Source: an uncultured beta proteobacterium
GTDB taxonomy: Bacteria > Pseudomonadota > Gammaproteobacteria > Burkholderiales > Burkholderiaceae_C
Direction: 5' to 3'
Length of the DNA stretch: 64,000 bases
Assembly (NCBI GenBank): GCA_903828665.1
Contig: CAIKMZ010000007.1
Location: 1-64,000, forward strand
Shown: positions 189-27,976 of the stretch, piece by piece
How the letters are laid out: each line of letters begins with the position of its first letter
How positions within the stretch are numbered: the stretch's first letter is position 1
The notes under the pieces: generated by a model
The model's input: the letters and a program-made list of their open reading frames with translations, nothing else
What the model was told of the DNA's origin: nothing
Databases searched by the model: none
Translations under genes and position numbers: made by a program

Positions 189-300
189 CGATAAGGATCA
201 TCACGGACCGCTGCCTTTCATTGACGAAGGTATTGACGCCGCATATTTTCACAAAGCGCCCGCTTGCTGAAAATAAGTTAATTCGGTATGCTTGGCGGCA

Positions 301-978
301 ATGACTGCCCCCAAACGATCCATCACGTCCACAAGCGAAGCGGCCAGCCCCGCCTTGCCCAAGCGCGCGCGCGGCCGCCCGCGCAAGACCGCCGAGGAGC
401 GTGACGACGGCAACCGCCGTGGGGCCCTGCTGGCAGCGGCCGCGCGCCTGTTTCGGCGCCAGGGCTTCGACGCCACCAGCACGCGCGATATCGCCGCGGC
501 CGTCGGCATGCACAGCGGCTCGCCCTTCTATCACTTCAAAAGCAAGAAGGCGCTGCTGTGCGCCGTCATGGAGGAGGGCATGCGCTCGGCCATCGCACGC
601 CAGGCGCACGCCGTGCAGGATGTGCCACCCGGTCCGCAGCAGGCCTTGCAGCAGATGCGCCGCCTGATCCGCGCCCATTTCGACACCCTGCACGGACGCG
701 GCAACGACTTTGTTCCGGTCATGCTGTACGAGCACCGGTCTCTCACATCCGCGCAGCGCGCGTCCCTGACCAAACTGCAGGACAGCTATGAGGCGGCCTG
801 GACGCCGGTGCTTGAAGTCCTGCACGCCAGCGGTCAACTGCGCGCGCCGGTCAAGCTCGCGCGCCTCTTGATCCTCGGTGCGCTGAGCTGGTCGGTTCAG
901 TGGTTTGACCCGAAGAAGGGCGCCTCGCTCGACGAGCTGACCGAGGCCTGCATGGTTTTGTTCCTGAAGGAGTGTTGA
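301..978 (+). CDS. TetR/AcrR family transcriptional regulator
   Basis: A one-component repressor of 225 residues. After a basic, proline-rich N-terminus (about residues 1-35) comes a typical TetR helix-turn-helix: the helix with LLAAAARLFRRQGFDATS, then TRDIAAAVGMHSGSPFYHF and KSKKALL. The C-terminal two thirds are the variable ligand-binding domain. The frame can be extended nine bases to a TTG, but the ATG at 301 is preferred. Its TGA overlaps the ATG of the next gene (TGATG), so it is co-transcribed with the SDR, dehydrogenase and thioesterase genes. By analogy it probably senses an acyl-CoA or acid intermediate and controls this operon; the ligand is unknown. Confidence 0.85.
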   Translation: MTAPKRSITSTSEAASPALPKRARGRPRKTAEERDDGNRRGALLAAAARLFRRQGFDATSTRDIAAAVGMHSGSPFYHFKSKKALLCAVMEEGMRSAIARQAHAVQDVPPGPQQALQQMRRLIRAHFDTLHGRGNDFVPVMLYEHRSLTSAQRASLTKLQDSYEAAWTPVLEVLHASGQLRAPVKLARLLILGALSWSVQWFDPKKGASLDELTEACMVLFLKEC

Positions 979-1862
979 TGACATACCGGTCCATATTTGC
1001 CAGCGATCTGTTTCGGTCCAAGGTGGTGGTGGTGACGGGCGGCGGGTCGGGCATCGGCCGCTGCACGGCCCATGAACTGGCGGCGCTCGGCGCGCACGTC
1101 GTGCTGATCGGGCGCAAGCTTGAGAAACTTCAGGCGGTCTCCGATGAGATCACGCAGGACGGCGGCGCCGTCAGCACCCAGGTCTGCGACATCCGCGACG
1201 AAGAGGCGGTGCGCCAGACCGTGGCGGCGGTGGTCGCGGCGCAGGGCCGCATCGACGGCCTGGTGAACAACGCGGGCGGCCAGTACCTGATGCCGCTCGA
1301 AGCCATCAGCGCCAAGGGCTGGGACGCGGTGCTCAGCACCAACCTGACCGGCGGCTTTCTGATGGCGCGCGAGTGCTTTTTGCAGTCGATGACACGGCAT
1401 GGCGGCGCCATCGTCAACATCGTGGCCGACATCTGGGGCTCGATGCCGGGCATGGGCCACAGCGGCGCAGCGCGCGCCGGCATGGTCAGCTTCACCGAGA
1501 CCGCCGCGCTCGAGTGGGCGGCCCGGGGCGTGCGCGTCAACGCCGTGGCGCCGGGGTATATCGCCTCCAGCGGCATGGACAAGTACCCGCCTGAACTGCG
1601 GCCCATGCTGCGCGAAATACCGCAGACGATTCCGCTCGGGCGCTTCGGCAACGAGGCCGAGGTGGCGGCCGGCATCGTCTATCTGCTCAGCCCGGCGGCC
1701 GCCTTCATCAGCGGCAGCACGCTGCGCATCGACGGCGCGCGGCCGCAGGTCCGCATGGGCTGGCCGATGCGCGTGGCCTCCGGGCAGGTGCGCGAGCGCG
1801 ACGCGATCAAACCGTTCGAAGGCTTTCACCGCGCCACGACGCCGGAGATGTTTTCAAAATGA
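978..1862 (+). CDS. Short-chain dehydrogenase/reductase, PECR-like (trans-2-enoyl-CoA reductase type)
   Basis: An NAD(P)-dependent SDR of 294 residues. The Rossmann motif TGGGSGIG is at residues 20-27 and NNAG at 97-100. At the usual YxxxK catalytic site the sequence instead reads HSGAARAG (residues 161-168), the motif I recall from peroxisomal trans-2-enoyl-CoA reductase, with His and Arg in place of Tyr and Lys; the following ALEWAARGVRVNAVAPG block is also PECR-like. This supports an enoyl-CoA or dienoyl-CoA substrate rather than a simple alcohol. The ATG at 978 overlaps the tetR stop, and the gene ends in an ATGA overlap with the acyl-CoA dehydrogenase. The exact substrate is inferred only from the cluster. 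Confidence 0.85.
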   Translation: MTYRSIFASDLFRSKVVVVTGGGSGIGRCTAHELAALGAHVVLIGRKLEKLQAVSDEITQDGGAVSTQVCDIRDEEAVRQTVAAVVAAQGRIDGLVNNAGGQYLMPLEAISAKGWDAVLSTNLTGGFLMARECFLQSMTRHGGAIVNIVADIWGSMPGMGHSGAARAGMVSFTETAALEWAARGVRVNAVAPGYIASSGMDKYPPELRPMLREIPQTIPLGRFGNEAEVAAGIVYLLSPAAAFISGSTLRIDGARPQVRMGWPMRVASGQVRERDAIKPFEGFHRATTPEMFSK

Positions 1863-3049
1863 CCGGAATTTCGGGAGCGGACATGACAAGCATGGAACTG
1901 GGGCAGGAAGACATTGCGCAGGTGCAGGACGCGGCGCGGCGCTTCATTCAGACCGAGGTGGCGCCGCACCTCGATGCGTGGGAAGAGGCGGGCGAATTTC
2001 CGCGCGCGCTCTACCAGCGCGCCGCCGCGCTGGGCTGGCTCGGCATGGGCTATCCGGAGGAATTCGGCGGCACGCCCAGTCCCTGGAATCTGCGCAACGC
2101 AATGACGGTGGCGCTGGCCCGCGCCGGCGGCAGCGGCGGGCTGATGGCCAGCCTGTTCAGCCACAACATCGGCTTGCCGCCGGTGTTGCGCCACGGCGGT
2201 GCGCAACTGCAGCGCGAGGTCATTCCCGCCGTGCTGCGCGGCGAGAAGATTGCGGCGCTGGCGATCACCGAACCCGGCGGCGGCACCGATGTCTCGGCGC
2301 TGCGCACGACCGCCCGGCTCGACGGCAACGACTACGTGGTTGACGGCGAGAAAGTCTTCATCACCTCGGGCATGCGCGCCGACTGGTTCACGGTGGCGGT
2401 GCGCACTGACCTCCAGAACAAGGGGCCGATGGGCATCTCGATGCTGATGGTGCCGGGCGATGCGGCCGGGCTGTCGCGCAGTGCGCTGAAGAAAATGGGC
2501 TGGCTGTGTTCCGACACGGCGCATCTGCGCTTCGACGGTGTGCGTGTTCCGGCGCGCTATCTGGTGGGCGAGGAGGGCGCCGGCTTCAAGATCATCCTGA
2601 CCAACTTCAACGGCGAGCGCCTGTCGATGGCGGCCATGGCGCTGGGCTTCTCGGAATGCTGCTACGACGAGGCGCTGTCCTGGGCGCGCCAGCGCAAGAC
2701 CTTTGGCACGGCGCTGGTGGACCACCAGGTGATCCGCCACAAGCTGATGGACATGAAGATGCGCATCGAATCGACGCGCGCCTGGCTCGACGCCGTGTCG
2801 GCGCGGGCCGACTCCGGCAACAAGGCCGACAAGGGCGCGCAGTGGGTGGCGCAGGTCTGCCTGTTGAAGAACCACGCGACGCAGACCATGCAGTTCTGCG
2901 CGGACCAGGGCGTGCAGATCCTGGGCGGCATGGGCTACATGCGCGGCACGGCCTGCGAGCGCATCTACCGCGAGGTCAAGGTCATGATGATCGGCGGCGG
3001 TGCCGAAGAGATCATGAAGGAGTTGGCCTCGCGTCAGCTCGGTCTGTGA
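1859..3049 (+). CDS. Acyl-CoA dehydrogenase, isovaleryl/long-chain-type active site
   Basis: An FAD-dependent acyl-CoA dehydrogenase of 396 residues, the usual family length, that would form the alpha-beta double bond and pass electrons to ETF. LAITEPGGGTDVSALRT (about 134-150) is the conserved flavin/substrate segment. At the C-terminal site where medium-chain enzymes have YEGT, this protein has IGGGAEE (378-384), and there is a glutamate in NGERL (E253) on the helix that carries the base in isovaleryl-CoA and long-chain enzymes. That hints at branched substrates. The ATG at 1859 overlaps the SDR stop; an in-frame ATG at 1883 with GGGAG just before it is a good alternative start. Confidence 0.9.
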   Translation: MTGISGADMTSMELGQEDIAQVQDAARRFIQTEVAPHLDAWEEAGEFPRALYQRAAALGWLGMGYPEEFGGTPSPWNLRNAMTVALARAGGSGGLMASLFSHNIGLPPVLRHGGAQLQREVIPAVLRGEKIAALAITEPGGGTDVSALRTTARLDGNDYVVDGEKVFITSGMRADWFTVAVRTDLQNKGPMGISMLMVPGDAAGLSRSALKKMGWLCSDTAHLRFDGVRVPARYLVGEEGAGFKIILTNFNGERLSMAAMALGFSECCYDEALSWARQRKTFGTALVDHQVIRHKLMDMKMRIESTRAWLDAVSARADSGNKADKGAQWVAQVCLLKNHATQTMQFCADQGVQILGGMGYMRGTACERIYREVKVMMIGGGAEEIMKELASRQLGL

Positions 3050-3059
3050 CAATCGCGCC

Positions 3060-3548
3060 ATGATCAAAAAAGCTGTGCCCCTGGATGCCATTGAATTCGA
3101 AGACGAGTTCGTCACCGGTCTGAAAAAAATATTCGAGGAGATGATTGTCTTCAACCAGGTGCTGGGCCTGAAAGTCACCTCACTCAAACCCACGCGCGTG
3201 ATCGGGCGCATCGAGATGCGGCCTGAACTGGTCGGCCATTTCGCCTTCAACCGCCTGCACGGCGGCGTCATCAGCGCCGGGCTCGACGCCATGGCCGGCA
3301 TTGCCGTGATGGCCGCCATCGGCGCGCGCCACATGGACGAGCCGCCCATGCAGCGCCTGCACCGGTTTGCCAAGCTCGGCACCATCGACCTGCGCATCGA
3401 CTACCTGCGCCCTGCGATCAGCGATCATTTCGAGCTGCGTGCCGAGGTGATGCGCCTGGGCTCGCGCGTTGCCTCCGCGCGCATGGAGTTCCTGGGCGCC
3501 AACGGCGAACTGATGTCGACCGGAACCGCCGCCTACATCGTTTCCTGA
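3060..3548 (+). CDS. Hotdog-fold thioesterase (YigI/PaaI-like)
   Basis: A 162-residue acyl-CoA thioesterase of the hotdog fold. The segment NRLHGGVISAGLDAMAGIA carries the HGG loop and the aspartate-containing helix expected for the family. It would release free acids from CoA esters, perhaps as an overflow valve for the pathway encoded around it. It starts 10 bp after the dehydrogenase stop and closes the forward operon. Its last 16 bases overlap, tail to tail, the end of the MeaB-PaaI fusion gene, which encodes a second, different thioesterase domain. Confidence 0.8.
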   Translation: MIKKAVPLDAIEFEDEFVTGLKKIFEEMIVFNQVLGLKVTSLKPTRVIGRIEMRPELVGHFAFNRLHGGVISAGLDAMAGIAVMAAIGARHMDEPPMQRLHRFAKLGTIDLRIDYLRPAISDHFELRAEVMRLGSRVASARMEFLGANGELMSTGTAAYIVS

Positions 3549-4786
3549 GCCGGCACGCTGACATCGATGCCGGTGACGTAGACGGTACCGGTAAAGCTCG
3601 AAATCGCCAGACCATCGGCGCGCGTGACGTCGATCCGGTAGATCGCGAGCTTGCGCGATCGTGAGACTTCCACCGCATGCGCCTGCAGCCGGTCCCCGGC
3701 GCGCGCCGCCTGCTGGTAGGTGATGTGGGCGTCGATGCCGGCGGCCACCTTGCCATGCGAGTTGGAGGCCAGTCCGAAGGCGGTGTCGGCCAGCGTGAAG
3801 ACTGCGCCACCGTGGCAGGTGCCGTTGAAGTTCAGATGCTGCGCGCCCACCGTCATCGCCACCGTGGCCGTGCCGGCGCCGGCCTCAAGGCAGCTGATGC
3901 CCAGCGAGCGCACGAACGGGTCGGCTGCCGCCATCGCCAGCACGCGCGCCTTGACGTCGCCCGCTGCCGGTTCGACCTTCGGTGCCGGACGCGCTTTCAG
4001 ACGCCGGGCGCGACCGGTGGCGACGAGGTGATCTTCGGCACGGTCGAGCAGCGCGGCCACATCGGCGCCCTTTTCGGCGCTGGTGCCGAGCACCGGAACG
4101 GTCCACGCGCCGGCGGCGGGTCTGGCGCGCAGATGCAGCATGTCCTTGAGATCGCGCACCGTGCTGTCGGCGCCCGGCAGATCCGACTTGGTCACCACCA
4201 GCAGGTCGGCGATCTCCAGGATGCCGGCCTTGATCGCCTGCACGCTGTCGCCGAGACCGGGCGGGCAGGCGACGATGCGGGTGTCGGCGACGCGCATGAT
4301 CTCCACCTCGGACTGCCCCGCGCCGACGGTCTCGATGATGATTACATCGAACCCGGCCGCGTCCAGCACGTCGACGATCTCCTCGGTGCTGCTCGACAAA
4401 CCGCCGAGGTGGCCGCGCGTGGCGAGCGAGCGGATGAAGACGTTCGCGTGCGCGCCGTGCTCGCCCATGCGCACGCGGTCACCGAGCACGGCGCCGCCGC
4501 TGACCGGGCTCGACGGATCGACCGCAACCACAGCAATGCGCCGGCCGCGCGCGAGCAACTCGCCCAGCATGGCATGCACCAATGTCGACTTGCCGGCGCC
4601 CGGTGCGCCGGTGATGCCCAGCACGTGGGCGCGGCCCAGGTGGGAGCGCAGCGCGTTCGAGACCACGCCGGGCGCGAGCTCGCCGTGTTCGATCTGGCTG
4701 ATGGCTCGCGCGACCACGCGCCGGTCACCGGCCAGCAGCGCCGGCGGTACCTGCCAGACGGGGTGAAGTGGGGGCCGCTTGCTCAC
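3533..4786 (-). CDS. MeaB-type GTPase fused to PaaI-type thioesterase
   Basis: A 417-residue two-domain protein. Residues about 1-260 are a MeaB/ArgK G-protein chaperone, which in the family gates adenosylcobalamin loading and protects acyl-CoA mutases: Walker [10 protein letters not shown] (60-68), [15 protein letters not shown] (90-104), ETVGAGQSE (152-160) and the base-recognition motif TKSD (199-202). After a linker (about 260-285) comes a complete PaaI-like hotdog domain with [10 protein letters not shown] (321-330) and LADTAF (332-337). The fusion replaces the usual MeaB C-terminal dimerisation arm. The start is a GTG at 4786 embedded in the mutase stop (GTGTGA), so the two are translationally coupled. 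The frame runs further upstream, but that stretch is antisense to the mutase and is not coding. Confidence 0.88.
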
Positions 4787-6462
4787 ACGACGGCCTGCAC
4801 GTGGCCAAAGCCCATTTCGCGGCGCAGCGTGTGGCAGATCTCGCCGTGCGTGCAGCCCGCTTCGGCCGCTTCGACCACGCGCGCAAAGACGTTGTCTTTG
4901 ACGTCGCCGGCGGCGCGCGCGAGCGCATCGAGCGCCTGCTGCACCGGGGCTTGCGATCGCGTGGCCTTGAAGGTCTTGAAGTCGTCGATCAGGGCCTGCA
5001 TGCCGCCTCGGTCCGGGCGCGCGTTGATGGGGCGCGCGCTGCTGTCCTCTTCCATGGCATAGGCGTTGACGCCGACGACGGTCTGCTCGCCGGACTCGAC
5101 CTGCTGCTGGAATTTTCGCGCCGACTCGCCGATCATGGCCTGCACCAGGCCCGCTTCGACAGCCGCGTACATGCCGCCGGCGTCTTCGATGACCTTCATG
5201 ACGCGCTCGATCTCGCCCTGCATCTGGTCCGTCAGCGTTTCGACGTAGTAGCTGCCGCCCAGCGGGTCGATCACGTCGGTCAGGTGCGCCTCTTCGCGCA
5301 GCACGTTCTGCGTCGCGATGGCGATGCGCGCGCCGAACTCGCTCGGGCACGACAGCGCCTCGTCGTAGGCGTCGGTGTGCAGCGACTGCAGGCCGCCCAG
5401 GATGCCGGCCATCGCCTGCACCGTGACACGCGAGATGTTGTTGAGCGGCTGCTGGCGCGTCAGGTCAACGCCTGAGGTCTGGGCATGGAACTTGAAGCGC
5501 CAGGAGCGCGGGTCCTTCGCACCGAGCTGCTCGCGCGTGATGCGGGCCCAGATGCGCCGGGCCGCGCGGAACTTGGCGACCTCCTCGAAGAAGCTGATCG
5601 AGACGTCGAAGAAGAAGGTGAAGCGCGGCAGGAACTGGTCCGGGTCCAGGCCGCGCGCCATGCAGTCCTTCGCGTTCTGGATCGCGGTGCACAGCGTGAA
5701 CGCCATCGACTCGGCCGGCGTGGCGCCGGCCTGCTGCGTGTGCTGTCCGACCACCGACATCGGGTTCCACTTCGGCAGCAGGCGCGTGCAGAAGTGGATG
5801 TGATCGGTCAGGATGCGTCGCGCGCCGGGCAGCGCCAGGCGGAAAAACATGTGATTGGCGACGTAGTGGCTCAGGTAGTCGCTCTGGTTCGAGGTGCCGC
5901 TGATGGCGCGCCAGTCGGTACCGCGCCGACGCGCCGTGGCCAGCATGAAGGCCAGCAGCGTGAACGGCGTCGGGTCGTTCTGGGCGCAGGAAATCTTCGC
6001 CAGATCCACACCCTGCAAGGCCTGGTCCATGTGTGACGTGGTGTTGATCACGGTGCCGCAGGTGCCAAGAAGTTCGATGTGCGACTCATCCATGTCGTAG
6101 CCGCGGAACACCGAGTTGCAGGGCAGCAGCGAGATGGCGTTGGCGCCGTTGGCCAGCACTTCGCGCAGCCGCGCGTTGTACTCGACCGGCGTGCCCAGGC
6201 CGGTGAGTTGGCGCTGCGACCAGGTCTTGCCCCGGTGCATGGTGGCGTAAATGCCGCGGGTGTAGGGCGCCTGGCCCGGCAGTCCGAGGCCGGCGCCGCG
6301 CTCAGCGGCGTTCCAGTCGCGCTCGGTGTAGATCGGCTGGATCGGCACGCCGGAGCGGTTGCGCACGGACTTGTCGATGCCGATGCCGGTAGCGTAATCC
6401 TGCTGCCATTGCTTGTAGGCGTCGGCGGGTGAAAGCAGGCTGGGATCGATCGGTTTGTTCAT
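4783..6462 (-). CDS. Adenosylcobalamin-dependent acyl-CoA mutase, large subunit, non-methylmalonyl pocket
   Basis: The 559-residue TIM-barrel, substrate-binding subunit of a radical B12 acyl-CoA mutase; the B12 domain is the separate upstream gene, as in isobutyryl-type mutases. Family landmarks are [10 protein letters not shown] (67-75), [12 protein letters not shown] (237-248), [19 protein letters not shown] (283-301), AQTSG (327-331), [15 protein letters not shown] (356-370) and [10 protein letters not shown] (399-408). Aligned by eye to Propionibacterium methylmalonyl-CoA mutase, Tyr89 becomes Leu86, Arg207 becomes Asn203, Arg82 becomes Lys79 and Tyr243 becomes Gln240, while the catalytic His244 is kept as His241. 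Loss of the carboxylate-binding arginine argues against methylmalonyl-CoA. The ATG at 6462 is 25 bp after the small-subunit stop. The substrate is unknown. Confidence 0.9.
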
Positions 6463-6487
6463 GATGGCTCTCCTGTGGGGCGGCGGG

Positions 6488-6910
6488 TCAGACGGCAACG
6501 CGGCGCGCGCGGCCAGCGACGGTGAGATCGTGCACGCAGGCGGCGATCTCGGCCATCGAACTGCCAGGGTGGAAGACGCGCGCCACGCCGGCCTGCAGCA
6601 GAACGGCCTCGTCTTGGTCCGGCACGATGCCGCCGACGATCACCGCCACGTCGCTCATGCCGGCTTCGCGCAGCGCGTCCATCAGCTTGGGCACGATCAG
6701 GTGGTCGGTGGCCAGCGATGAAATGCCTATGACGTCGACATCCTCCTCCAGCGCGAGCTTGACCACGGTGGCGATCTCCTGCCAGGGCGGCGTGTAGATC
6801 ACCTCCATGCCGGCGTCGCGAAGGCCGGCGGCCACGACGCGGCTGCCGCGGTCGTGGCCGTCGAAACCGATCTTGGTGACCAGCACCTTGGGTATGACAG
6901 CTTGGTTCAT
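6488..6910 (-). CDS. Acyl-CoA mutase small subunit, B12-binding domain
   Basis: A 140-residue cobalamin-binding domain that would pair with the large subunit encoded next. The DxHxxG motif appears as DGHDRG at residues 17-22; its histidine is the lower cobalt ligand in this family. Lys13 sits where the conserved lysine of the lower-face triad is expected. GISSLATDH and VGGIVPDQD are the usual nucleotide-tail contact segments. The length is normal for split mutases (about 135-140). The ATG overlaps the TetR stop by four bases (ATGA), placing the regulator and both mutase subunits in one operon. Confidence 0.92.
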
Positions 6911-7494
6911 TGGGCGAGCTCCTGACCCTGGTGCAGCAGGGCGATGAATTTGTGCGCGATGGCACGGGGTTTGTATCGGCCGTTAGGGCGATACCAGATC
7001 TGGGATGAATTGAGGCCGCCGATCAGCAGCAGGCGGAAGCTGCGCCGGTCTGTGTTGGCGCGCAGCGGCAAGGCCTTGACCAGCTCGACGAACAGCGCCT
7101 CATAGCGGTTGCGCAGGTCGATCAGGGTCGGGCTCGCCGCCGGAATGTCGGCCGGATGCACGCGGATCACGACCTGGGCGTAATCGTCGTCGCGCAGGAT
7201 CGATTCGAGATGGGCGACACAGGCCGCCTCCAGGCGCTGCCAGGGGTCGGTATGGTGCGCCACGGCGGCATTGACGGCGGCGCTGATCTGCTCGACGCCC
7301 TTGACGTAGACGGCGCTCAGCAGCGCTTCCTTGGTGGCGAAGTGGCAGTAGAGCGAGCCCGGCAGCATGCCGACCGCGCGCGCGATGTCGCGTACCGAGG
7401 TGCCGCCGAAGCCCTGCGTGCGGAACAGGCGGGCGGCTTCGTCGAGCACCTGGGGCAGGCGGCTGTCGCTGTGGGATTTGCGGGTGGTGGCCAT
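6907..7494 (-). CDS. TetR family regulator of the mutase operon
   Basis: A 195-residue TetR-type repressor. The N-terminal helix-turn-helix reads AARLFRTQGFGGTSVRDIARAVGMLPGSLYCHF-type sequence (about 20-52), followed by the C-terminal ligand-binding domain. It is the first gene of the reverse operon and overlaps the mutase small subunit by four bases. A perfect 14-bp palindrome lies inside its own promoter, so autorepression of the whole mutase-chaperone operon is very likely, with an acyl-CoA or free acid as probable inducer. It differs from the TetR protein at 301-978, so the island has two local sensors. Confidence 0.88.
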   Translation of the reverse strand: MATTRKSHSDSRLPQVLDEAARLFRTQGFGGTSVRDIARAVGMLPGSLYCHFATKEALLSAVYVKGVEQISAAVNAAVAHHTDPWQRLEAACVAHLESILRDDDYAQVVIRVHPADIPAASPTLIDLRNRYEALFVELVKALPLRANTDRRSFRLLLIGGLNSSQIWYRPNGRYKPRAIAHKFIALLHQGQELAQ

Positions 7495-7518
7495 GGTTTT
7501 TCGGTTGACGTTGGATGC

Positions 7519-7548
7519 AGTATACCAAACGATCGTTTGCTTTGTTAA
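7519..7548 (-). promoter_or_regulatory. Promoter with embedded TetR operator
   Basis: On the reverse strand, -35 TTAACA (7543-7548) and -10 TATACT (7519-7524) are separated by 18 bp. The spacer contains the perfect palindrome CAAACGATCGTTTG (7526-7539). This is the textbook layout for steric repression by a TetR dimer. The -10 box is 25 bases from the TetR ATG at 7494. No other promoter is needed to explain the tetR-mutase-meaB operon. Confidence 0.75.
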
Positions 7549-7663
7549 TTATTCTGACGAGCGTGGACATCGTGCGCAATTGCGAACTCTCAAGAAAGGT
7601 GCATTCTTGCCTTGTGCGTCTCGTTTCTGCGTGCTAGCGTGAAGTTTTCAGCTGGAGTAACGC

Positions 7664-8311
7664 ATGTCGACACTCATTGCCAAATACGAAGGTGAATCCA
7701 AGTTCTACTGCCCGTACGATTTGAACAAGGTCGATGAATGGTGGGTTGAGCGGGACGTCTTGTACGTCAAGCTCGCCAAGGATTCGGAGCCCGAGGGGTT
7801 CCTGCCCTATTGGGAGGCCGACTCCGATCTGTTGCGGCATCCAAGCTCATCTGAGGTGCGGGAATCGCAGCACATCGTCTATGCCTATGCCGACGCGGCG
7901 GAGCAGAACCGGCTCGGGAAATTCCGGGTTGGAGATCCCTATCCCAACGAGCGTGAAGCCACGGCAAAGGCGGACACGCTATTCGGCGACAGATGGGTGC
8001 TGCTGAACATCGTTCCGGAGTCGGCGGCCGATTTCGTCGACGATGACGCGCTTGAAAACTTCCATCTGGTCTTGAAGGGCGGCATCAAGCTGAGCGCCTT
8101 CGCCCAAGTGACACGACTTGACGGGTCGCCTGCCGACCTCGTCGAATTCGATCCAAGACTGGTGACCCCATGGCAGCTTCGTGCCATTGTGCAGGACGCA
8201 GAAGGCGACGGGTGGGAAACGATAGCGGTCCACCGTACCCGCAAGGCGCCTGCGTGCTGCGTCATCACCCACGACATGAAATATACGATCCTGCCGAAAG
8301 CAAAGAAGTGA
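7664..8311 (+). CDS. Hypothetical protein, unrecognised
   Basis: A 215-residue soluble, acidic, tryptophan-containing protein; no family was recognised. It has no signal peptide or membrane segment, and no cysteine cluster or nucleotide-binding motif apart from a CC pair near the C-terminus (APACCVITHD). A TGGAG sequence eight bases before the ATG supports the start. Its base composition is lower in GC than the neighbouring catabolic genes, which suggests a separate origin. It diverges from the TetR gene across 169 bp and shows no obvious functional link to the mutase operon. Confidence 0.65.
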   Translation: MSTLIAKYEGESKFYCPYDLNKVDEWWVERDVLYVKLAKDSEPEGFLPYWEADSDLLRHPSSSEVRESQHIVYAYADAAEQNRLGKFRVGDPYPNEREATAKADTLFGDRWVLLNIVPESAADFVDDDALENFHLVLKGGIKLSAFAQVTRLDGSPADLVEFDPRLVTPWQLRAIVQDAEGDGWETIAVHRTRKAPACCVITHDMKYTILPKAKK

Positions 8312-8394
8312 CGCTGCGCACGCTGCGGCGGTCCTCTTGCTTTTCATGAGCAGTCCGCCGCGCGGGCTAATCAATCGTCGTGCGAACTCTGGTT

Positions 8395-8736
8395 TCAGTC
8401 TTGGACCTGGCGGTTGCGGCGCTCGGTCTCCCGGCGCAAGCGCTCTCGGCGCTCCGCCTTGCGACGATCAACTTCCATGCGATCCGCTTCCCCGGCAGGG
8501 GCCACCCTGCGATCAGTAGCCCTGCGCTCGACGGCTCTGCGATCGGTTGCCCGCCGTTTTTGACCGAGTCGATAGCCTCGTCTCATCCAGCCGATGAATA
8601 CGCCTGCTGAAATTAGCAGGCCGCCGCTGAGCACTGAAAGCGCACTGCCTAGATTCACAATCGTCGCGATGCCGCTCGCTACATAAACATAGGGTAGCGC
8701 TTCATACAACCAGTGAGGCTTGTGGAAATCAAACAT
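8395..8736 (-). CDS. Small membrane protein with Arg/Glu-rich tail
   Basis: A 113-residue protein with two predicted hydrophobic segments (about 13-30 and 34-50) and a highly charged C-terminal half built on repeated RRATDRR/VERRATDRR-like units. GGAGG sits seven bases before the ATG, which strongly supports translation. The tail is likely cytoplasmic and helical. No function is recognised. The low-complexity tail is encoded by short near-repeats in DNA, so a low-complexity artefact is possible, but the ribosome-binding site and the clean N-terminal membrane hairpin favour a real gene. Confidence 0.6.
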   Translation of the reverse strand: MFDFHKPHWLYEALPYVYVASGIATIVNLGSALSVLSGGLLISAGVFIGWMRRGYRLGQKRRATDRRAVERRATDRRVAPAGEADRMEVDRRKAERRERLRRETERRNRQVQD

Positions 8737-8873
8737 CGGTCAACCTCCGGTTTCAGACAGGGCGATGCTGCTTCGGATTCTAGGTCGGCTGCCGGAACTT
8801 CGAGAGGGAGGCGACCGTCGTAGCGGGTCGCATCCACTCACCAGCAGGTGGCTTTCTTCGCGGGCGCGCAGTG

Positions 8874-10052
8874 CTATTTCTTGACCGCCGCCATGTCCGT
8901 GATGTAAGGCCCGACCACCTTCCACTTGCCGTCCTGGATCTGGGACAGGCGCGAGGCGTCGCTGCCCAGGCGCTTGGTCGGCGAGAACGTGGCCGGCGCG
9001 CTGCCGAAGATGTCGGGCGGGATCGTCATCGTGTCCATGACCTTGATGAAGCTGTCGGTTGTCAGGTTGCGGCCGGCCTTGGTGGCGGCGTTGGCGAAGG
9101 TGTTGATGATCAGGTAGCCGTAGACCGAGAACACGGCCGGGTCTTCGCCGAACTTAGTCTTGTACTTGTTGGCCCAGAAGCGGATCGGCTGCGAGGTTTC
9201 GTCGGTGTAGGGGTTCTGCACGGTCATGGTGGCATACATGCCGTCCATCGCCTTGCCGCCGAGCTTGTGGATCAGGTCGGTGTAGGCGGCGCTGGAGCCC
9301 AGGAACACCGGGTTGAAGCCGGTCTTGCGCGACTCGCCGATGGTGCCGATGGTCTCGCGGATGATGGTGCCCAGCACCACGAGTTCGCAGCCGGCCGCCT
9401 TCATCTTGGCTACCTGCGACGAGAAGTCGGTCGCGCCACGCTTGAACGAAGTCTTCTCGGTGTAGTCCATGCCCATCGACTTCAGGCCTGCTTCGCCGCC
9501 GCGCAGCACTTCGAGCCCGAAGTCGTCGTCCTGAAAAATGGTGCAGACCTTTTTGACGCCTTTTTCCTTGACCATCTGCGGCACGGCGCGCCGGATCTGG
9601 TCATAGTAGGTGGCGGCAAACGAGTACTTGAGCCGGTGGAAGGGTTCGTACATCTCGCGCGCAGCCGTCACCGGGAAGAAGTTGATCACGTTCTTCTCGA
9701 ACTGCACTGGCATCGCTGCCATGTTCTGCGCCGTGCCGATGTGGCCCATCATCATGAAGATCTTGTCCTGATTGACCAGCTTTTGCGCCGCCAGAACCGC
9801 CTTCTTCGGGTCGTAGCCGGAGTCCTCCACGATGAGCCGGATCTTGCGGCCGTTGATGCCGCCCTGCTCGTTGATTTCATCGACGGCGAGCATCATGCCC
9901 AGCCGGTCCTGCTTGCCGAAGCCGGCGAGCGGCCCCGACAGGTCCTGTATCGAGCCGAGCACGATCTCGGTGTCCGTGACGCCCTGCTGGGCGCAATAGA
10001 CGTTCGCCGAGAGGGCGAGCGCCGCGAGTGCAATACCGAACGTCTTCTTCAT
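8874..10052 (-). CDS. ABC transporter periplasmic substrate-binding protein (LivK type)
   Basis: A 392-residue type I periplasmic binding protein of the branched-chain amino acid/amide/carboxylate family. A signal peptide (about 1-21, cleavage probably after YCA) is followed by TDTEIVLGSIQDLSGPLAGFGK, the usual start of the mature LivK fold, and DEINEQGGINGRKI. An AAGGAGA ribosome-binding site lies seven bases before the ATG. It is the last gene of the operon after the ligase (29-bp gap) and presumably delivers substrate to LivHMGF. Relatives in Burkholderiales bind amino acids or aromatic and aliphatic acids; ligand choice cannot be read from the sequence. Confidence 0.88.
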   Translation of the reverse strand: MKKTFGIALAALALSANVYCAQQGVTDTEIVLGSIQDLSGPLAGFGKQDRLGMMLAVDEINEQGGINGRKIRLIVEDSGYDPKKAVLAAQKLVNQDKIFMMMGHIGTAQNMAAMPVQFEKNVINFFPVTAAREMYEPFHRLKYSFAATYYDQIRRAVPQMVKEKGVKKVCTIFQDDDFGLEVLRGGEAGLKSMGMDYTEKTSFKRGATDFSSQVAKMKAAGCELVVLGTIIRETIGTIGESRKTGFNPVFLGSSAAYTDLIHKLGGKAMDGMYATMTVQNPYTDETSQPIRFWANKYKTKFGEDPAVFSVYGYLIINTFANAATKAGRNLTTDSFIKVMDTMTIPPDIFGSAPATFSPTKRLGSDASRLSQIQDGKWKVVGPYITDMAAVKK

Positions 10053-10081
10053 TTTCTGTCTCCTTCAAAAAAACTAGAGTG

Positions 10082-11938
10082 CTACCTGTACATGGCCTCG
10101 ATCCGGGCCGTGTATTTCTTTTCGACCAGTTTGCGCTTGAGTTTCATGGTCGGCGTCAGTTCCTCGTCTTCCGCTGTCAACTGGGTCTCGAGCAGGAAGA
10201 ATTTCTTGATCTGTTCGACGCGCGCGAACTTCTGGTTCACGCGGTCGATCTCGCGCTGGATCAGCGCCTGCACTTCGCGCGAGCGCGTCAGGCTCGCGTA
10301 GTTGCTGAACGGCACGTCCGTGTCCTGCGCGAATTTCTCGACGTTCTCCTGGTCGATCATGATGATGGCCGTGAGGTAGGGGCGCTTATCGCCGATCACC
10401 ACGGCATCGGTGATGTAGGGCGAGAACTTGAGATCGTTCTCTAGTTCGCTCGGCGTCACGTTCTTGCCGCCGGCCGTGATGATGATGTCCTTCATGCGGT
10501 CGGTGATCCGGAAGAAGCCATCGGCGTCCATCACGCCGACGTCGCCAGTGTGCAGCCAACCGTCGGCGTTGATCGTTTCGGTCGTTTTTTCTGGCAGGTT
10601 CAGGTAGCCGGCAAACACATTCCTGCCGCGTACCAGAATCTCGCCCGTGGCGGGGTCGAGCCGCACCTCGTTGAAGGCCGCGGCCGGGCCGATCGAGCCG
10701 GGCTTCATGCGCTCCGCTGGCACGCCGGTGGAGGCGCCGCAGGTCTCCGTCATGCCCCAAACTTCGAGCATCGGCACGCCGAGCGCCAAATACCAGCGCA
10801 CCAGGTCGGGCGAGATCGGCGCCGCGCCCGTGACCAGGAAGCGCGCGCGGTGGATACCGATCATCTTGCGCACGTTGTTCAGCGCCAACCACTGGGCCAG
10901 CTGGAACTTGAGCTTGAGCCAGCGGCCCACGGTCTGGCCGGCGAGCACGCGCTCGGCGATCGCGGTGCCCACGCCAATGCCCCAGGCGTAGGCCGCCTGC
11001 TGCAGGCCGCTGGCCTCCTTGAGCGCGATCATGACGCCCGAGTAGAACTTCTCCCAGACCCGCGGCACCGCGGTGAAAACCGTGGGCGCGATCTCGCGCA
11101 CGTTCTCGGGAATCGTTTCCGGGTTTTCGACGAAGTTAAGCTTGGTTCCGGTGTAGAGCGCAAAGTACTCGCCGCCCATGCGCTCGGCGATGTGGCACAG
11201 CGGCAGGAAGCACATGCGCTCGTCGCGCTCGTCCTGCGCCACCAGCGTGTTGTAGCCGCGCACGGTGTAGACCAGCCCGGCGTGCAGGTGCATCGCGCCC
11301 TTGGGCTTGCCCGTCGTACCCGAGGTGTAGACCAGGATCGCCAGGTCATCCGGTTTGCAGTCTTGCACGCGTTGCTGCAGCGCATCCGGGTGCGCGGCCA
11401 GATAGGCGCGGCCGCGTTCGCGCAGCGCGGCCAGGCTGATGATGGCGGGATCGTTGAGCTGGTGCAGCCCTTCCATGTCGAACACCACCATCGCGCGCAG
11501 CTGGGGCAACTGATCGCGCACTTCGAGCGCCTTGTCGAGCTGCTCGTCGTCCTCCACGAACAGGATGCGGGTGCGCGAGTCTTCGCACAGGTAATGCACC
11601 TGCGACGCGGCGTCGGTCGGGTAGATGCCGTTGGAGACGCCGCCGCAGGACAGCACGGCCAGATCGGCCCAGACCCATTCGACCACCGTGTTGGCGAGGA
11701 TGGAGGCGCATTCGCCGTGCGCGAAGCCCAAGCTCAGCAGGCCGCCGCCGATCTCGCGCACCGCCTCGGCGCACTGGTTCCAACTCCAGGCGCGCCACAG
11801 GCCCAGGTGCTTCTGGCGCAGCCAGGTCGCAGGGCCGCGTTGCGCCACCGCGTTCCAGAACAGCGCGGGAATGGTTTCTCCCGGCAACACGATGTCGCTG
11901 TTGGGCTTGATATGGCTGAGGTCCCAGAGTTGCGTCAT
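10082..11938 (-). CDS. AMP-dependent acyl-CoA synthetase (long-chain fatty acid-CoA ligase type)
   Basis: A 618-residue adenylate-forming ligase that would activate a carboxylic acid to its CoA thioester using ATP. The P-loop motif YTSGTTGKPKGAM occurs near residue 205; VWGMTETCGAST and WLHTGDVGVMDADGFFRITDR, with KDIIITAGGKNVTPSE after it, are the A5-A8 core motifs. Length and the split between large and small domains match FadD15-like enzymes. It is embedded in the liv operon, five bases after livF, so the imported compound is probably a carboxylic acid activated on entry and fed to the dehydrogenase or mutase. Chain length is not predictable here. Confidence 0.9.
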   Translation of the reverse strand: MTQLWDLSHIKPNSDIVLPGETIPALFWNAVAQRGPATWLRQKHLGLWRAWSWNQCAEAVREIGGGLLSLGFAHGECASILANTVVEWVWADLAVLSCGGVSNGIYPTDAASQVHYLCEDSRTRILFVEDDEQLDKALEVRDQLPQLRAMVVFDMEGLHQLNDPAIISLAALRERGRAYLAAHPDALQQRVQDCKPDDLAILVYTSGTTGKPKGAMHLHAGLVYTVRGYNTLVAQDERDERMCFLPLCHIAERMGGEYFALYTGTKLNFVENPETIPENVREIAPTVFTAVPRVWEKFYSGVMIALKEASGLQQAAYAWGIGVGTAIAERVLAGQTVGRWLKLKFQLAQWLALNNVRKMIGIHRARFLVTGAAPISPDLVRWYLALGVPMLEVWGMTETCGASTGVPAERMKPGSIGPAAAFNEVRLDPATGEILVRGRNVFAGYLNLPEKTTETINADGWLHTGDVGVMDADGFFRITDRMKDIIITAGGKNVTPSELENDLKFSPYITDAVVIGDKRPYLTAIIMIDQENVEKFAQDTDVPFSNYASLTRSREVQALIQREIDRVNQKFARVEQIKKFFLLETQLTAEDEELTPTMKLKRKLVEKKYTARIEAMYR

Positions 11939-11943
11939 GCCGG

Positions 11944-12741
11944 TTATCTCCAGGTCTTCTTCTTTTTCCAGCGCCGCTCGCCGCGCACGCCGTCGTCGCG
12001 CAGGCCGAGGTAGAACTCCTTGATGTCGTCCTTCTCGCGCAGGTGGGCGCAGGTGTCTTCCATCACGATACGGCCGTTCTCGAGGACGTAGCCATAGTCG
12101 GAGGCGTTGAGCGCCATGTTCGCGTTCTGCTCTACCAGCAGGATGGTGGTGCCGCGCTCGCGGTTGATGCGCACGACGATCTCGAAGATCTCCTTGGTCA
12201 GTTTGGGCGACAGTCCCAGGCTTGGCTCATCAAGCAGCATCAGGTTGGGGTCGGCCATCAGCGCGCGCGAGATCGCCAGCATCTGCTGCTGGCCGCCCGA
12301 AAGCAGGCCGGCATCCTGCGCGCTGCGCTCGCGCAGAATCGGGAAGTAGGCGAACACGGTCTCGATGTCGCGCGCCACTCCGTCGCGGTCCTTGCGCGTG
12401 TAGGCGCCCATCAGCAGGTTCTCGCGCACGCTCAGCAGCGGGAACACTTCGCGCCCCTCCGGCACATGGCTCAGGCCCTGCTGCACGATGGCGGTCGGGT
12501 CCTGAGCCGTGATGTCGTTGCCCTTGAACTCGATCGAGCCCTTGCGCGGGTCGATGATTCCGGAGATAGTCTTCAGAATGGTCGTCTTGCCCGCGCCGTT
12601 GGAGCCCAGCACGGTGGCGATTTCGCCCCGGCGCACCTGCAGGCTCACCCCCCGGATCGCCTTGATCGGGCCGTAGGCGCTCTCGACGTTGAGCAGTCGC
12701 AGCACCGGTGCGTCACTGATGGCGGGTGCGCTGCTGCTCAT
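11944..12741 (-). CDS. livF: Branched-chain-type ABC transporter ATPase LivF
   Basis: A 265-residue ATPase of the high-affinity branched-chain amino acid type transporter. Walker A is GSNGAGKTT, the signature is LSGGQQQMLAISRAL, Walker B is LMLLDEPSLGLSP, and the switch histidine position reads ILLVEQN, the LivF variant. A basic tail (RRWKKKKTWR) follows the family's normal end. The ATG at 12741 overlaps the livG stop (ATGA). It pairs with LivG to energise the LivH/LivM channel at the inner membrane. Confidence 0.93.
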   Translation of the reverse strand: MSSSAPAISDAPVLRLLNVESAYGPIKAIRGVSLQVRRGEIATVLGSNGAGKTTILKTISGIIDPRKGSIEFKGNDITAQDPTAIVQQGLSHVPEGREVFPLLSVRENLLMGAYTRKDRDGVARDIETVFAYFPILRERSAQDAGLLSGGQQQMLAISRALMADPNLMLLDEPSLGLSPKLTKEIFEIVVRINRERGTTILLVEQNANMALNASDYGYVLENGRIVMEDTCAHLREKDDIKEFYLGLRDDGVRGERRWKKKKTWR

Positions 12742-13568
12742 GGCCTTGCTCCCTGGCCGGACGCAGGCCGGTGCAGGCTGGAGACGTCCTCGATGGAACC
12801 CAGATAGGCTTCGATCACGCCCGGATCGCTTTGCACCTCGCGCGGCGTGCCGGTCGCGAGCACCCGGCCCTCGCTCATCGCGAGCACGCGGTCCGACACC
12901 TTGGAGACCAGCGTCATGTCGTGCTCCACCATCAGCACCGTGATGCCCAGGTCGTTCTTGATGTCGGCGATCCAGAACGCCATGTCCTCGGTCTCCTCGA
13001 CGTTCAGGCCGCTGGAGGGCTCGTCGAGCAGCAGCAGCTTGGGTTCCGTGCACAGCGCGCGCGCCATCTCAACTACCTTGCGCACGCCGTAGGGCAGGCC
13101 GGCCACCAGCGCATCGCGATGGTGCTGCAGGTCGAGGAACTCGATCACTTCCTCAGCCTTCTCGCGCGCCCTGAGTTCGGCCGCGCGCGTCTTGCGCGTG
13201 AAGAGCAGGTCCTGCCAGAAGCCGGTTTTGCGCTGCGTGTGGCAGCCGATCAGCAGGTTGTGCAGCACGGTGGCGTGTTCGAACAGCTCGATGTTCTGGA
13301 AGGTGCGCGCGATGCCCAGGCCGGCCACATCCTGCGGCGCCTGTTCGGTTAGGCACAGCATACCCTGCGGACCCAGGTAGTCGATCGTGCCGCTGGTGGG
13401 CGTGTAGAGGCGGCTGATCAGATTGAAGACGGTCGTCTTGCCAGCGCCATTGGGCCCGATCAGCGTGAAGACCTCGCTCTGTCGCACATCGAAGCTGACG
13501 TCGTTCACGGCCAGCAGGCCGCCGAAGCGCACGCTCAGGTTCTTGGCTGATAGAAGCGTGGAGGTCAT
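12738..13568 (-). CDS. livG: Branched-chain-type ABC transporter ATPase LivG
   Basis: A 276-residue ATP-binding subunit. Walker [10 protein letters not shown], the LivG-specific [10 protein letters not shown] segment, signature-region [13 protein letters not shown] in place of a canonical LSGGQ, Walker [13 protein letters not shown] and VEHDM with the switch histidine are all visible. The degenerate signature motif is usual for this family. The start overlaps the livM stop by four bases (ATGA) and the end overlaps livF in the same way. It forms the ATPase heterodimer with LivF. Confidence 0.93.
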
Positions 13569-14641
13569 TTCAGCCGATCGGATTTTTGGAATGATTTCTG
13601 CCGCTTGAACATGCCCTTGCGGTAGAAAGGAAACATCTGCAGGTAGGTGCGGATCTTGAGCCAGCGGCCGTACAAGCCCTGCGGTTCGAACAGCACGAAG
13701 GCCACGAGCACCGCGCCGTAGACGAAGCCCTGCAGGCCCGGCGCCTGACCGACGCTGGGTGGCAGGTAGTCCTTCACCATGGCAATGAGCTGCGGCATGC
13801 TGATCAGGAAGATGGCGCCCAGAAAGGCGCCGTGCACCGAGCCGACGCCGCCGATCACGATCATCAGCAGCAGGTCGATCGATTGCAGGATGTCGAACTG
13901 ATCTGGCGAGATGAACTGTAGCTTGTGCGCGTACAGCGCGCCGGCCACGCCGGCCAGCGCCGCCGACCAGGCAAACGAGAGCGTCTTGTAGCGCGCCAGG
14001 TGGATGCCCATGCTCTGCGCTGAAATCTCCGAGTCGCGTATCGCGACAAAGGCGCGGCCGGTCGGCGCGCGCAGCAGGTTCAGGATGCCCAGCGTCGCCA
14101 GAACGGTGAGCAGCAGGCAGAGAAAGTAGAAGGCCTCGCCGGAGTCCAGCGTCCAGCCGAAGAAGTCGGGCTTCTTGATGTGGATGCCCGCGTTGCCGCC
14201 GGTGACCGATTCCCAGCGCGCCAGCACTTCCTCGACGATGAAGCCGAAGGACAGAGTTGCCATTCCCAGGTAGATGCCCTTGACGCGCAGCGCCGGCAGG
14301 CCCACCACCACGCCGACCGCCGCCGACAGGCCGGCCGCGCACACCAGTGCCAGAGGAAAGGGCAGTCCGGCATTGGTCAGCACCGCCTGCGTGTAGGCTC
14401 CAACGCCGAGGAAGGCGGCGTGCCCAAGCGAGAACAGGCCGGTGTAGCCGGCCAGCAGCATCAGGCCGAGCCCGGCAATCGCGTAGATCAGCACGAAGGT
14501 CAGCTGCGCCAGCCAGTACTCGGGCACCAGCCAGGGCGCTGCCAGCAGCGCCAGCAGCAGTGCGCCGTACCAGAACACATGGCCGCCGTGCCGGGCCAGC
14601 TTGATGTCCTGTTCGTAGTCGGTCTTGAAAATGAAGCGCAT
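13565..14641 (-). CDS. livM: Branched-chain-type ABC transporter permease LivM
   Basis: A 358-residue inner-membrane permease with about ten hydrophobic segments. [27 protein letters not shown]-type sequence (about residues 52-78) and [19 protein letters not shown] (the cytoplasmic coupling loop) identify LivM. The ATG at 14641 is five bases after the livH stop; longer in-frame extension upstream is antisense to livH and rejected. It forms the translocation path with LivH. Confidence 0.92.
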
Positions 14642-14646
14642 CGTGA

Positions 14647-15534
14647 TCAGACCTTCTTGCGGAGCTTTTCGCCGAACAGGCCGTTCGGTTTGACCACCAG
14701 CATGATCAGCACCACGACGTAGGCGGCGGTGTCCTTGAAGCCGTCGGGCAGGTAGAAGCCCGAGAGCGACTCCACGATGCCGATCAGCAGACCGCCGACA
14801 ATGGCGCCGGGCAGGCTGCCAAAGCCGCCGACCACGGCAGCGGGCATGGCCTTGAGGCCGATGAAGCCCATGTTGGCATGCACGAAGGTGATCGGCGCCA
14901 GCAGCAGCCCGGCCACGGCCGCCACGGCCGAGGCCAGTCCCCAGGCCACGCCGTTGAGTTGGCGCACCGGAATGCCCATGTAGTACGCGGCCAACTGGTT
15001 TTGCGACGCCGCTTGCATGGCAATGCCGAGCTTGCTGTAGCGAAACAGCAGGTAGAGCAGGGCGCACAGGATCGATGTGACGGCGATCACGACCATTTGC
15101 TCGACGTTGAGCACCAGACCGGCGAGCTTCCAGATTTGGTCCTTGTAGGGCACTGGCAGCGTGTGGGTCTCGGTGCCGATGCCGGGAATCATGGTGATCA
15201 GGCCGCGCAGCATGTAGCCGATACCGATGGTGAGCATGACCACGGAGAACGCCGGCTGTCCCAGGATCGGGCGGATCACGAGGCGCTCGAGTAGCATACC
15301 GAACAAGGCCATGCCCGCCAGCGTGGAGAGCACCGACAGCCAGTAGGGGAATCCGAAAAACGTCATGGCCGCCAGGCCGCCGAAGGCGCCCAGCATCATA
15401 AGCTCGCCCTGTGCGAAGCTGACGGTCTCGGTGGCCTTGTAGATCAGCACAAAGCCCAGCGCGATTAGTCCGTAGATGCAGCCTTGCGCGATTCCGCTGA
15501 TGAGCAGTTGAAGAAGCTGCAATGGGTCTCCCAT
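14647..15534 (-). CDS. livH: Branched-chain-type ABC transporter permease LivH
   Basis: A 295-residue membrane permease and first gene of the operon livH-livM-livG-livF-ligase-livK. The N-terminal segment QLLISGIAQGCIYGLIALG and the later SFAQGELMMLGAF, together with MGIPVRQLNGVAWGLAS, are LivH hallmarks. It diverges from the crotonase-family gene across 118 bp, which must hold both promoters; a TATAAC box on the reverse strand (15549-15554) is a possible -10 but lacks a good -35 partner. Confidence 0.92.
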   Translation of the reverse strand: MGDPLQLLQLLISGIAQGCIYGLIALGFVLIYKATETVSFAQGELMMLGAFGGLAAMTFFGFPYWLSVLSTLAGMALFGMLLERLVIRPILGQPAFSVVMLTIGIGYMLRGLITMIPGIGTETHTLPVPYKDQIWKLAGLVLNVEQMVVIAVTSILCALLYLLFRYSKLGIAMQAASQNQLAAYYMGIPVRQLNGVAWGLASAVAAVAGLLLAPITFVHANMGFIGLKAMPAAVVGGFGSLPGAIVGGLLIGIVESLSGFYLPDGFKDTAAYVVVLIMLVVKPNGLFGEKLRKKV

Positions 15535-27869: not shown

Positions 27870-27966
27870 TCCGGGATTCAGTGCCATGCGGGCCATGGAT
27901 TGCGGGTCGTGGCCCGCAATGACAGGCAGTGGTTGTCATCCCGTCCTCGGATCAAGTCCGCCATGA
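27858..27966. repeat. Dispersed intergenic palindromes, family B, copy 3 (composite)
   Basis: Three hairpins in series: TCCCGGACCTGATCCGGGA (27858-27876), ATTGCGGG/CCCGCAAT around six bases (27899-27920), and the family core CGGATCAAGTCCGCCATGAC near 27948-27967. The block fills the gap between the convergent hydrolase and glnE genes and covers the hydrolase stop codon. It may also act as a bidirectional terminator. Confidence 0.6.
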
Positions 27967-27976
27967 CGTATGCGGG

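Follow-up and report, generated by a model that had tools for sequence, protein, structure and literature searches.

We analysed a pair of genes at positions 4783-6910 (minus strand) of a 64,000-nucleotide stretch of DNA from an uncultured beta proteobacterium (contig CAIKMZ010000007.1 of assembly GCA_903828665.1; 'the window' means this whole stretch). They encode an acyl-CoA mutase whose large subunit and B12-binding small subunit are two distinct proteins. It is one of the B12 enzymes that shift the thioester group of an acyl-CoA to the neighbouring carbon by a general radical mechanism. The enzyme is probably an adenosylcobalamin-dependent two-subunit member of the clade of pivalyl-CoA mutase (PCM), converting pivalyl-CoA or a longer 2,2-dimethylacyl-CoA to the 3-methylacyl-CoA. 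It shares its clade, pocket residues and operon with Xaut_5043/5044 of Xanthobacter autotrophicus Py2, which we take to be the assayed pivalyl-CoA/isovaleryl-CoA mutase.

We compared the large subunit with methylmalonyl-CoA mutase (MCM) by HMMER against PDB chains and in a 96-row MAFFT alignment, with residues numbered as in the Propionibacterium enzyme and anchored on 5req (a Y89F mutant). Tyr89, Arg207, Arg82 and Tyr243 of MCM are replaced by Leu86, Asn203, Lys79 and Gln240, and the catalytic His244 is retained as His241, exactly as the original prediction had them from an alignment by hand. The B12 motif, also reported there, is intact in the small subunit (D17-G-H19-D-R-G22, DxHxxG). The window enzyme has the fold, B12 motif and His244 in common with MCM, and departs from it further in Pro114 for Phe117, Asn162 for Thr166, Thr282 for Ser285 and Ser288 for Gly291. 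As the clamp on a substrate carboxylate would be gone without Arg207, the earlier argument against a dicarboxylic acyl-CoA stands, and a monocarboxylic branched substrate is still the best reading; Leu for Tyr89 together with Asn for Arg207 may line a neutral pocket that accepts a branched alkyl group. In an AlphaFold2 model of the large subunit (mean pLDDT 72.1, pTM 0.77), residues 54-87, which form the Leu86 loop, and 204-206 score below 50, and because of that loop we make no claim about pocket geometry.

The pocket residue set is not due to chance, given that Leu86, Asn203, Gln240 and His241 are kept in 80/80 loci (the best 80 of 287 relatives). One of the two peptides used for the search spans Gln240-His241 and biases the count for these two residues, so that only the counts for Leu86 and Asn203 are unbiased. 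Lys79, by comparison, is local: Lys is found in 8/80 loci, and Arg, as in MCM, in 72/80. In addition, 42 alignment columns, Asn203 and Gln240 among them, are common to at least 85/86 clade rows and to 0/10 outside rows. Together with Leu86/His241 they provide a signature useful for annotation; where annotation was seen, clade members carry the name 'methylmalonyl-CoA mutase, large subunit' or 'acyl-CoA mutase large subunit family protein'. One member found by a separate search (L015, G046:C2; 64% identical) has Leu instead of Asn203 and an altered stretch after it, and its substrate is possibly different from that of the others.

A protein search of plasmids found Xaut_5043, on plasmid pXAUT01, with 66.9% identity over 97% of the query. 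It carries Leu, Asn, Gln and His at MCM positions 89, 207, 243 and 244. In the joint alignment the window and Xaut proteins are 65% identical, a value inside the range found within one specificity (61-69% for MCM; 83% for 2-hydroxyisobutyryl-CoA mutase, HCM) and higher than the 27-50% found between groups. Of 43 active-site columns picked after MCM structures, 36 match Xaut_5043; with each of five references (three of MCM, two of HCM) the number is 20-21/43. Kitanishi, Cracan and Banerjee are said to have expressed Xaut_5043/5044 in 2015 and to have found pivalyl-CoA/isovaleryl-CoA mutase activity without isobutyryl-CoA activity. The same plasmid has a second set of mutase genes, Xaut_5017-5021 (in order GntR, small subunit, ligase, MeaB-type protein and large subunit), in which Xaut_5021 carries HCM residues; passages of PMC7176365 describe this GntR/ligase/MeaB-type layout for HCM. 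Since Xaut_5017-5021 has both the layout and the residues of HCM, Xaut_5043/5044 would be the other enzyme.

The original prediction, which listed pivalyl-CoA mutase but did not align it, held that the pocket was unlike the known types and that the specificity might be undescribed. Neither claim is supported by the comparison with Xaut_5043, which, at 67% identity, has exactly the same Leu/Asn/Gln/His set, the same core operon and the same clade; the unusual pocket is real, but it is not new. We consider a genuinely undescribed specificity very unlikely: the key sites are indeed unlike those of MCM, HCM and the fused isobutyryl-CoA mutase IcmF, and neither the window nor the Xaut protein reached a clade-specific NCBIfam model in the family scan, but pocket, clade and operon all agree with Xaut_5043/5044. 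The literature searched gave no mention of the locus tags Xaut_5043/5044 and no paper on pivalic acid and denitrifying bacteria, and the passages retrieved that name pivalyl- or pivaloyl-CoA concern IcmF only or cite the 2012 IcmF paper. According to passages in two papers, IcmF too interconverts pivalyl- and isovaleryl-CoA (PMC10481361, PMC9974510).

Phylogeny places the window enzyme with Xaut_5043. In a 38-row tree, a branch of length 3.85 and support 100/100 separates these two and 29 relatives (31/38 rows) from the four MCM rows, the two HCM rows and a Streptomyces mutase; within the clade, window and Xaut fall in a common 23-row group (98/93). The 38 rows were chosen from 96, and the 58 left out include the long-branched OWN_C72, OWN_C84 and DIAPH_b. 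In a tree of all 96 rows, the same 86 clade rows stay together (SH-aLRT 99), and the genome's own IcmF groups with MCM and HCM. The references did not include unfused IcmA, RCM (Kyrpidia) or ethylmalonyl-CoA mutase.

Residues at key sites and the tree both bear out the earlier view that the enzyme is not of the MCM, HCM or IcmF type. MCM is rejected by the replaced Arg207, Tyr89 and Tyr243 and by the position outside its clade. HCM is rejected by the lack of Ile at MCM 89 and of Gln at 207, again with a position outside the clade, and IcmF, as represented by the genome's own copy, by the lack of Phe at 89 and of Gln at 207. HCM (HcmAB, 4r3u; Xaut_5021/5018 by residues and layout) is the nearest PDB entry to the large subunit in sequence and in fold, and what Foldseek confirms is the mutase fold alone (4r3u_A, E 1.1e-30, TM 0.81, rmsd (root-mean-square deviation) 8.0). 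This likeness, which could suggest that the window enzyme is a drifted mutase of an ordinary type (for methylmalonyl-, isobutyryl- or 2-hydroxyisobutyryl-CoA), extends to the two-subunit layout and the catalytic His. HCM, however, has Ile/Gln/Tyr at MCM 89/207/243 where the window enzyme has Leu/Asn/Gln, is 34-37% identical to it, and belongs to a GntR-ligase-MeaB operon; IcmF has the same fold but is a single chain with a G-domain and a Phe/Gln pocket. Moreover, the genome has its own MCM (contig C27; Tyr/Arg/Tyr/His, over the NCBIfam cut-off) and its own IcmF (C84; Phe/Gln, with a 514-residue piece matching NF045497), and residues unlike those of the ordinary types are conserved throughout the 80 loci. 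Drift from one of the ordinary types is therefore improbable in the extreme.

The mutase genes belong to a four-gene operon on the minus strand, in the order TetR, small subunit, large subunit and MeaB-PaaI, with four-base overlaps between TetR and small subunit and between large subunit and MeaB (Table 1). The large-subunit start at 6462 is preceded by GGAGAG, a Shine-Dalgarno-like sequence; no cobalamin riboswitch or other RNA family was found in the window at gathering score. Genes for LivK, a ligase and LivF, G, M and H (8874-15534) lie upstream of the operon on the same strand, and genes for a second TetR, a short-chain dehydrogenase/reductase (SDR), an acyl-CoA dehydrogenase (ACAD) and a thioesterase (292-3548) lie on the plus strand, oriented towards it.

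Table 1. Genes of the mutase operon and its surroundings in the window.
Gene product	Coordinates	Strand	Details
Mutase large subunit (PCM-type)	4783..6462	-	559 aa; PF01642, 551.9 bits; pocket K79, L86, N203, Q240, H241
Mutase small subunit, B12-binding	6488..6910	-	140 aa; PF02310; DxHxxG; 70% identity with Xaut_5044
MeaB G-protein chaperone fused in-frame to PaaI-type hotdog thioesterase	3533..4786	-	417 aa
TetR-family regulator, first gene of mutase operon	6907..7494	-	44% identity with Xaut_5045
LivK-type periplasmic binding protein	8874..10052	-	Family scan
AMP-binding acyl-CoA ligase	10082..11938	-	30% identity with Xaut_5039
LivF-type ABC ATPase	11944..12741	-	47% identity with Xaut_5034 ('ABC transporter related'); Liv name assigned by reading
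LivG-type ABC ATPase	12738..13568	-	45% identity with Xaut_5038 ('ABC transporter related'); Liv name assigned by reading
LivM-type permease	13565..14641	-	Name from sequence reading
LivH-type permease	14647..15534	-	34% identity with Xaut_5037
Second TetR-family regulator	292..978	+	36% to TetR of an Acinetobacter cluster read as acyclic-terpene type
SDR oxidoreductase	972..1862	+	Closest PDB sequence: 6lln, 'Putative dehydrogenase involved in catabolism of citronellol'
Acyl-CoA dehydrogenase (ACAD)	1859..3049	+	55% to ACAD of the Acinetobacter cluster
Hotdog thioesterase	3060..3548	+	NF008675 over cut-off; convergent, overlaps MeaB-PaaI gene end

The Xaut locus has the same core order: Xaut_5045 (TetR), 5044 (small subunit), 5043 (large subunit), 5042 (MeaB-type) and 5041 (PaaI-type thioesterase), followed by 5040 (PaaK-type ligase), 5039 (AMP-ligase) and 5038-5034 (ABC uptake); these product names are re-read in modern terms, the original annotations being older. 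The reported PCM locus thus shares with the window the Leu/Asn/Gln/His pocket, the separate small subunit, the gene order, and genes for ABC uptake and a CoA ligase close by. The core proteins are 67% (large subunit), 58% (MeaB) and 37% (PaaI) identical, with TetR and small subunit as in Table 1. In the window, by contrast, MeaB and PaaI are fused and Lys79 takes the place of Arg; the window also adds an ACAD, an SDR and an extra thioesterase, and lacks the PaaK-type ligase. Among 81 loci inspected, 77 had a clear MeaB, which forms one open frame with PaaI in 55, is separate from it in 7 and occurs without PaaI in 15, although contig ends may conceal some arrangements. The window enzyme is probably a further member of the PCM type, reportedly described already. 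On the MeaB-thioesterase fusion as an architecture, one literature search, in the part of its results inspected, gave nothing.

Which genes accompany the mutase was assessed in 40 loci (39 of the 80, those with at least 20 kb, and the Xaut stretch) and 20 controls, 20-kb stretches taken at even intervals along one same-genus genome; the 40 loci are related to one another and slightly longer than the controls, so p-values for these contrasts serve merely for orientation. At a threshold of at least 100 bits, MeaB-PaaI was found in 39/40 loci and TetR_B in 37/40, against 0/20 controls for both. The uptake genes followed with 18/40 (LivF), 17/40 (LivG), 11/40 (LivH) and 6/40 (LivK), again against 0/20. 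The ligase (15/40) and ACAD (16/40) were each also seen in 1/20 controls, and SDR (8/40), thioesterase (9/40) and PaaK (8/40) in 0/20; enoyl-CoA hydratase (ECH) gave 0/40 and 0/20. At 60 bits, the controls also match LivF and LivG (21/40 versus 4/20 each), and the TetR_A counts are mostly cross-matches of TetR_B (36/40 at 60 bits, 5/40 at 100). Uptake and activation of an acid are a recurrent, but not universal, partner of the mutase. These operons hint at where PCM may operate physiologically and at a route by which quaternary-carbon acids could be broken down.

We infer the substrate, the direction of the reaction and the roles of the neighbouring genes to be as follows. The acid would be imported by the Liv-type ABC system and activated by the ligase. 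The adenosyl radical would then take a hydrogen from a methyl group of the acyl-CoA, whose alpha carbon is quaternary as in pivalyl-CoA or in longer 2,2-dimethylacyl-CoAs, and the thioester group would move to the radical carbon, giving a 3-methylacyl-CoA (isovaleryl-CoA from pivalyl-CoA). Such a rearrangement would lift the block to beta-oxidation posed by the quaternary alpha carbon. The product could be dehydrogenated by an ACAD and enter the methylcrotonyl-CoA carboxylase (MCC)/3-hydroxy-3-methylglutaryl-CoA (HMG-CoA) lyase route, while the operon's own MeaB-type chaperone may serve loading and repair of the mutase. Genes for MCC alpha, MCC beta and HMG-CoA lyase are present together on another contig of the genome (C52). 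These, the ABC uptake and ligase genes, the terpene-type SDR and ACAD and the carboxylase cluster described below all fit a reaction that turns a 2,2-dimethylacyl-CoA into a 3-methylacyl-CoA.

The natural acid could be pivalate or a longer alpha-quaternary acid, as the genome context fits either. A narrower alternative is that this PCM-clade enzyme acts not on pivalate but on a longer gem-dimethyl acyl-CoA, for example one derived from terpenoids, whose 3-methylacyl-CoA product would enter an Atu-type route. Both the SDR and the ACAD of the window show 55% identity to members of an Acinetobacter cluster that also has DUF1446, carboxylase and ECH genes and that we read as of the acyclic-terpene (Atu) type, and in the PDB the SDR comes closest to the putative citronellol-catabolism dehydrogenase (Table 1). 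In addition, contig C25 of the genome (7627-13164; L186) carries a geranyl-CoA-carboxylase-like cluster of carboxyltransferase beta subunit (CT-beta), ACAD, ECH and biotin carboxylase genes matching the Acinetobacter cluster; its CT-beta is closest to geranyl-CoA carboxylase 5ikl (680 bits, versus 510 for MCC). However, the carboxylase cluster sits on a different contig from the mutase, and SDRs and ACADs both form large families of mixed function, and we regard an exclusively longer substrate as unlikely. Equally tentative is a broader proposal, in which the transporter-ligase-mutase module of the PCM clade would be a general natural solution to alpha-quaternary acids, turning gem-dimethyl acyl-CoAs of terpenoid or branched-alkane origin into 3-methylacyl-CoAs for Atu/Liu-type carboxylation, with the MeaB-fused thioesterase clearing dead-end or mischarged acyl-CoA.

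Several points weigh against assigning the window enzyme to a PCM-type reaction on pivalyl-CoA or its longer homologues. Xaut_5043/5044 is identified as PCM by organism and locus tags, and PCM has reportedly been assayed on few substrates, mainly in vitro. The window enzyme differs from Xaut_5043 in 7/43 active-site columns (MCM numbers 77, 82, 85, 209, 211, 290 and 338). Identity to the Xaut counterparts is just 30-47% for the ABC and ligase genes, which may thus serve a different acid. The 25.6 kb Xaut stretch gave no match to the ACAD or the second thioesterase; its two SDR matches sit in the divergent Xaut_5049/5050 region, and it has the PaaK-type ligase. Among 25 ACAD matches in the window's genome, no isovaleryl-CoA dehydrogenase could be singled out. 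The flanks of two further loci (L073 and L077, five proteins each) hold no acid-catabolism partner, their proteins being of unrelated or no family. Finally, the nearest outside row in the 96-row tree is not a characterised enzyme but OWN_C72, which sits on a very long branch and is placed with little certainty.

The clade is sparsely distributed. It was found in 8/35 genus-mates and in 8/399 genomes of the order Burkholderiales, the window's own included, where a ninth match was just 38% identical; among 398 genomes of the phylum, the window's own was alone at E 1e-120. By title, relatives come from Ramlibacter, Rubrivivax, Polaromonas and Rhodoferax, with two actinobacterial contigs and one from Desulfovibrionaceae, and many are metagenome-assembled genomes. 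Plasmid-borne relatives occur in Sphingobium, Diaphorobacter and Roseovarius. A plasmid of Sphingobium sp. YC-XJ3, from contaminated soil (L123), carries two copies of a cluster of thiolase/AMP-ligase and PCM-type TetR-small-large-MeaB genes; several proteins have an identical accession in both copies, and IS6100 and ISSp1 transposases lie between them, which suggests recent duplication.

Two other mutases were seen outside the clade. On the plasmid of Diaphorobacter sp. HDW4B, a mutase at 26644-28269 (L124) has Ala for Tyr243 with Arg207 and Tyr89 retained; it adjoins enoyl-CoA hydratase and CoA-transferase genes and lies 11 kb from a PCM-clade cluster. In the window's own genome, contig C72 (G000:C72, L136) carries a divergent mutase operon of large subunit, B12 subunit, MeaB, enoyl-CoA hydratase and ACAD genes (large subunit at 8001-9701, minus strand, with genes at 7586-8068, 6596-7576, 5617-6534 and 4278-5498). 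This mutase has Leu, Cys and Asn at MCM 89, 207 and 244, where the alignment is uncertain, at 27-32% identity to the other rows; it appears to have lost the catalytic His, and looks stranger than the window mutase.

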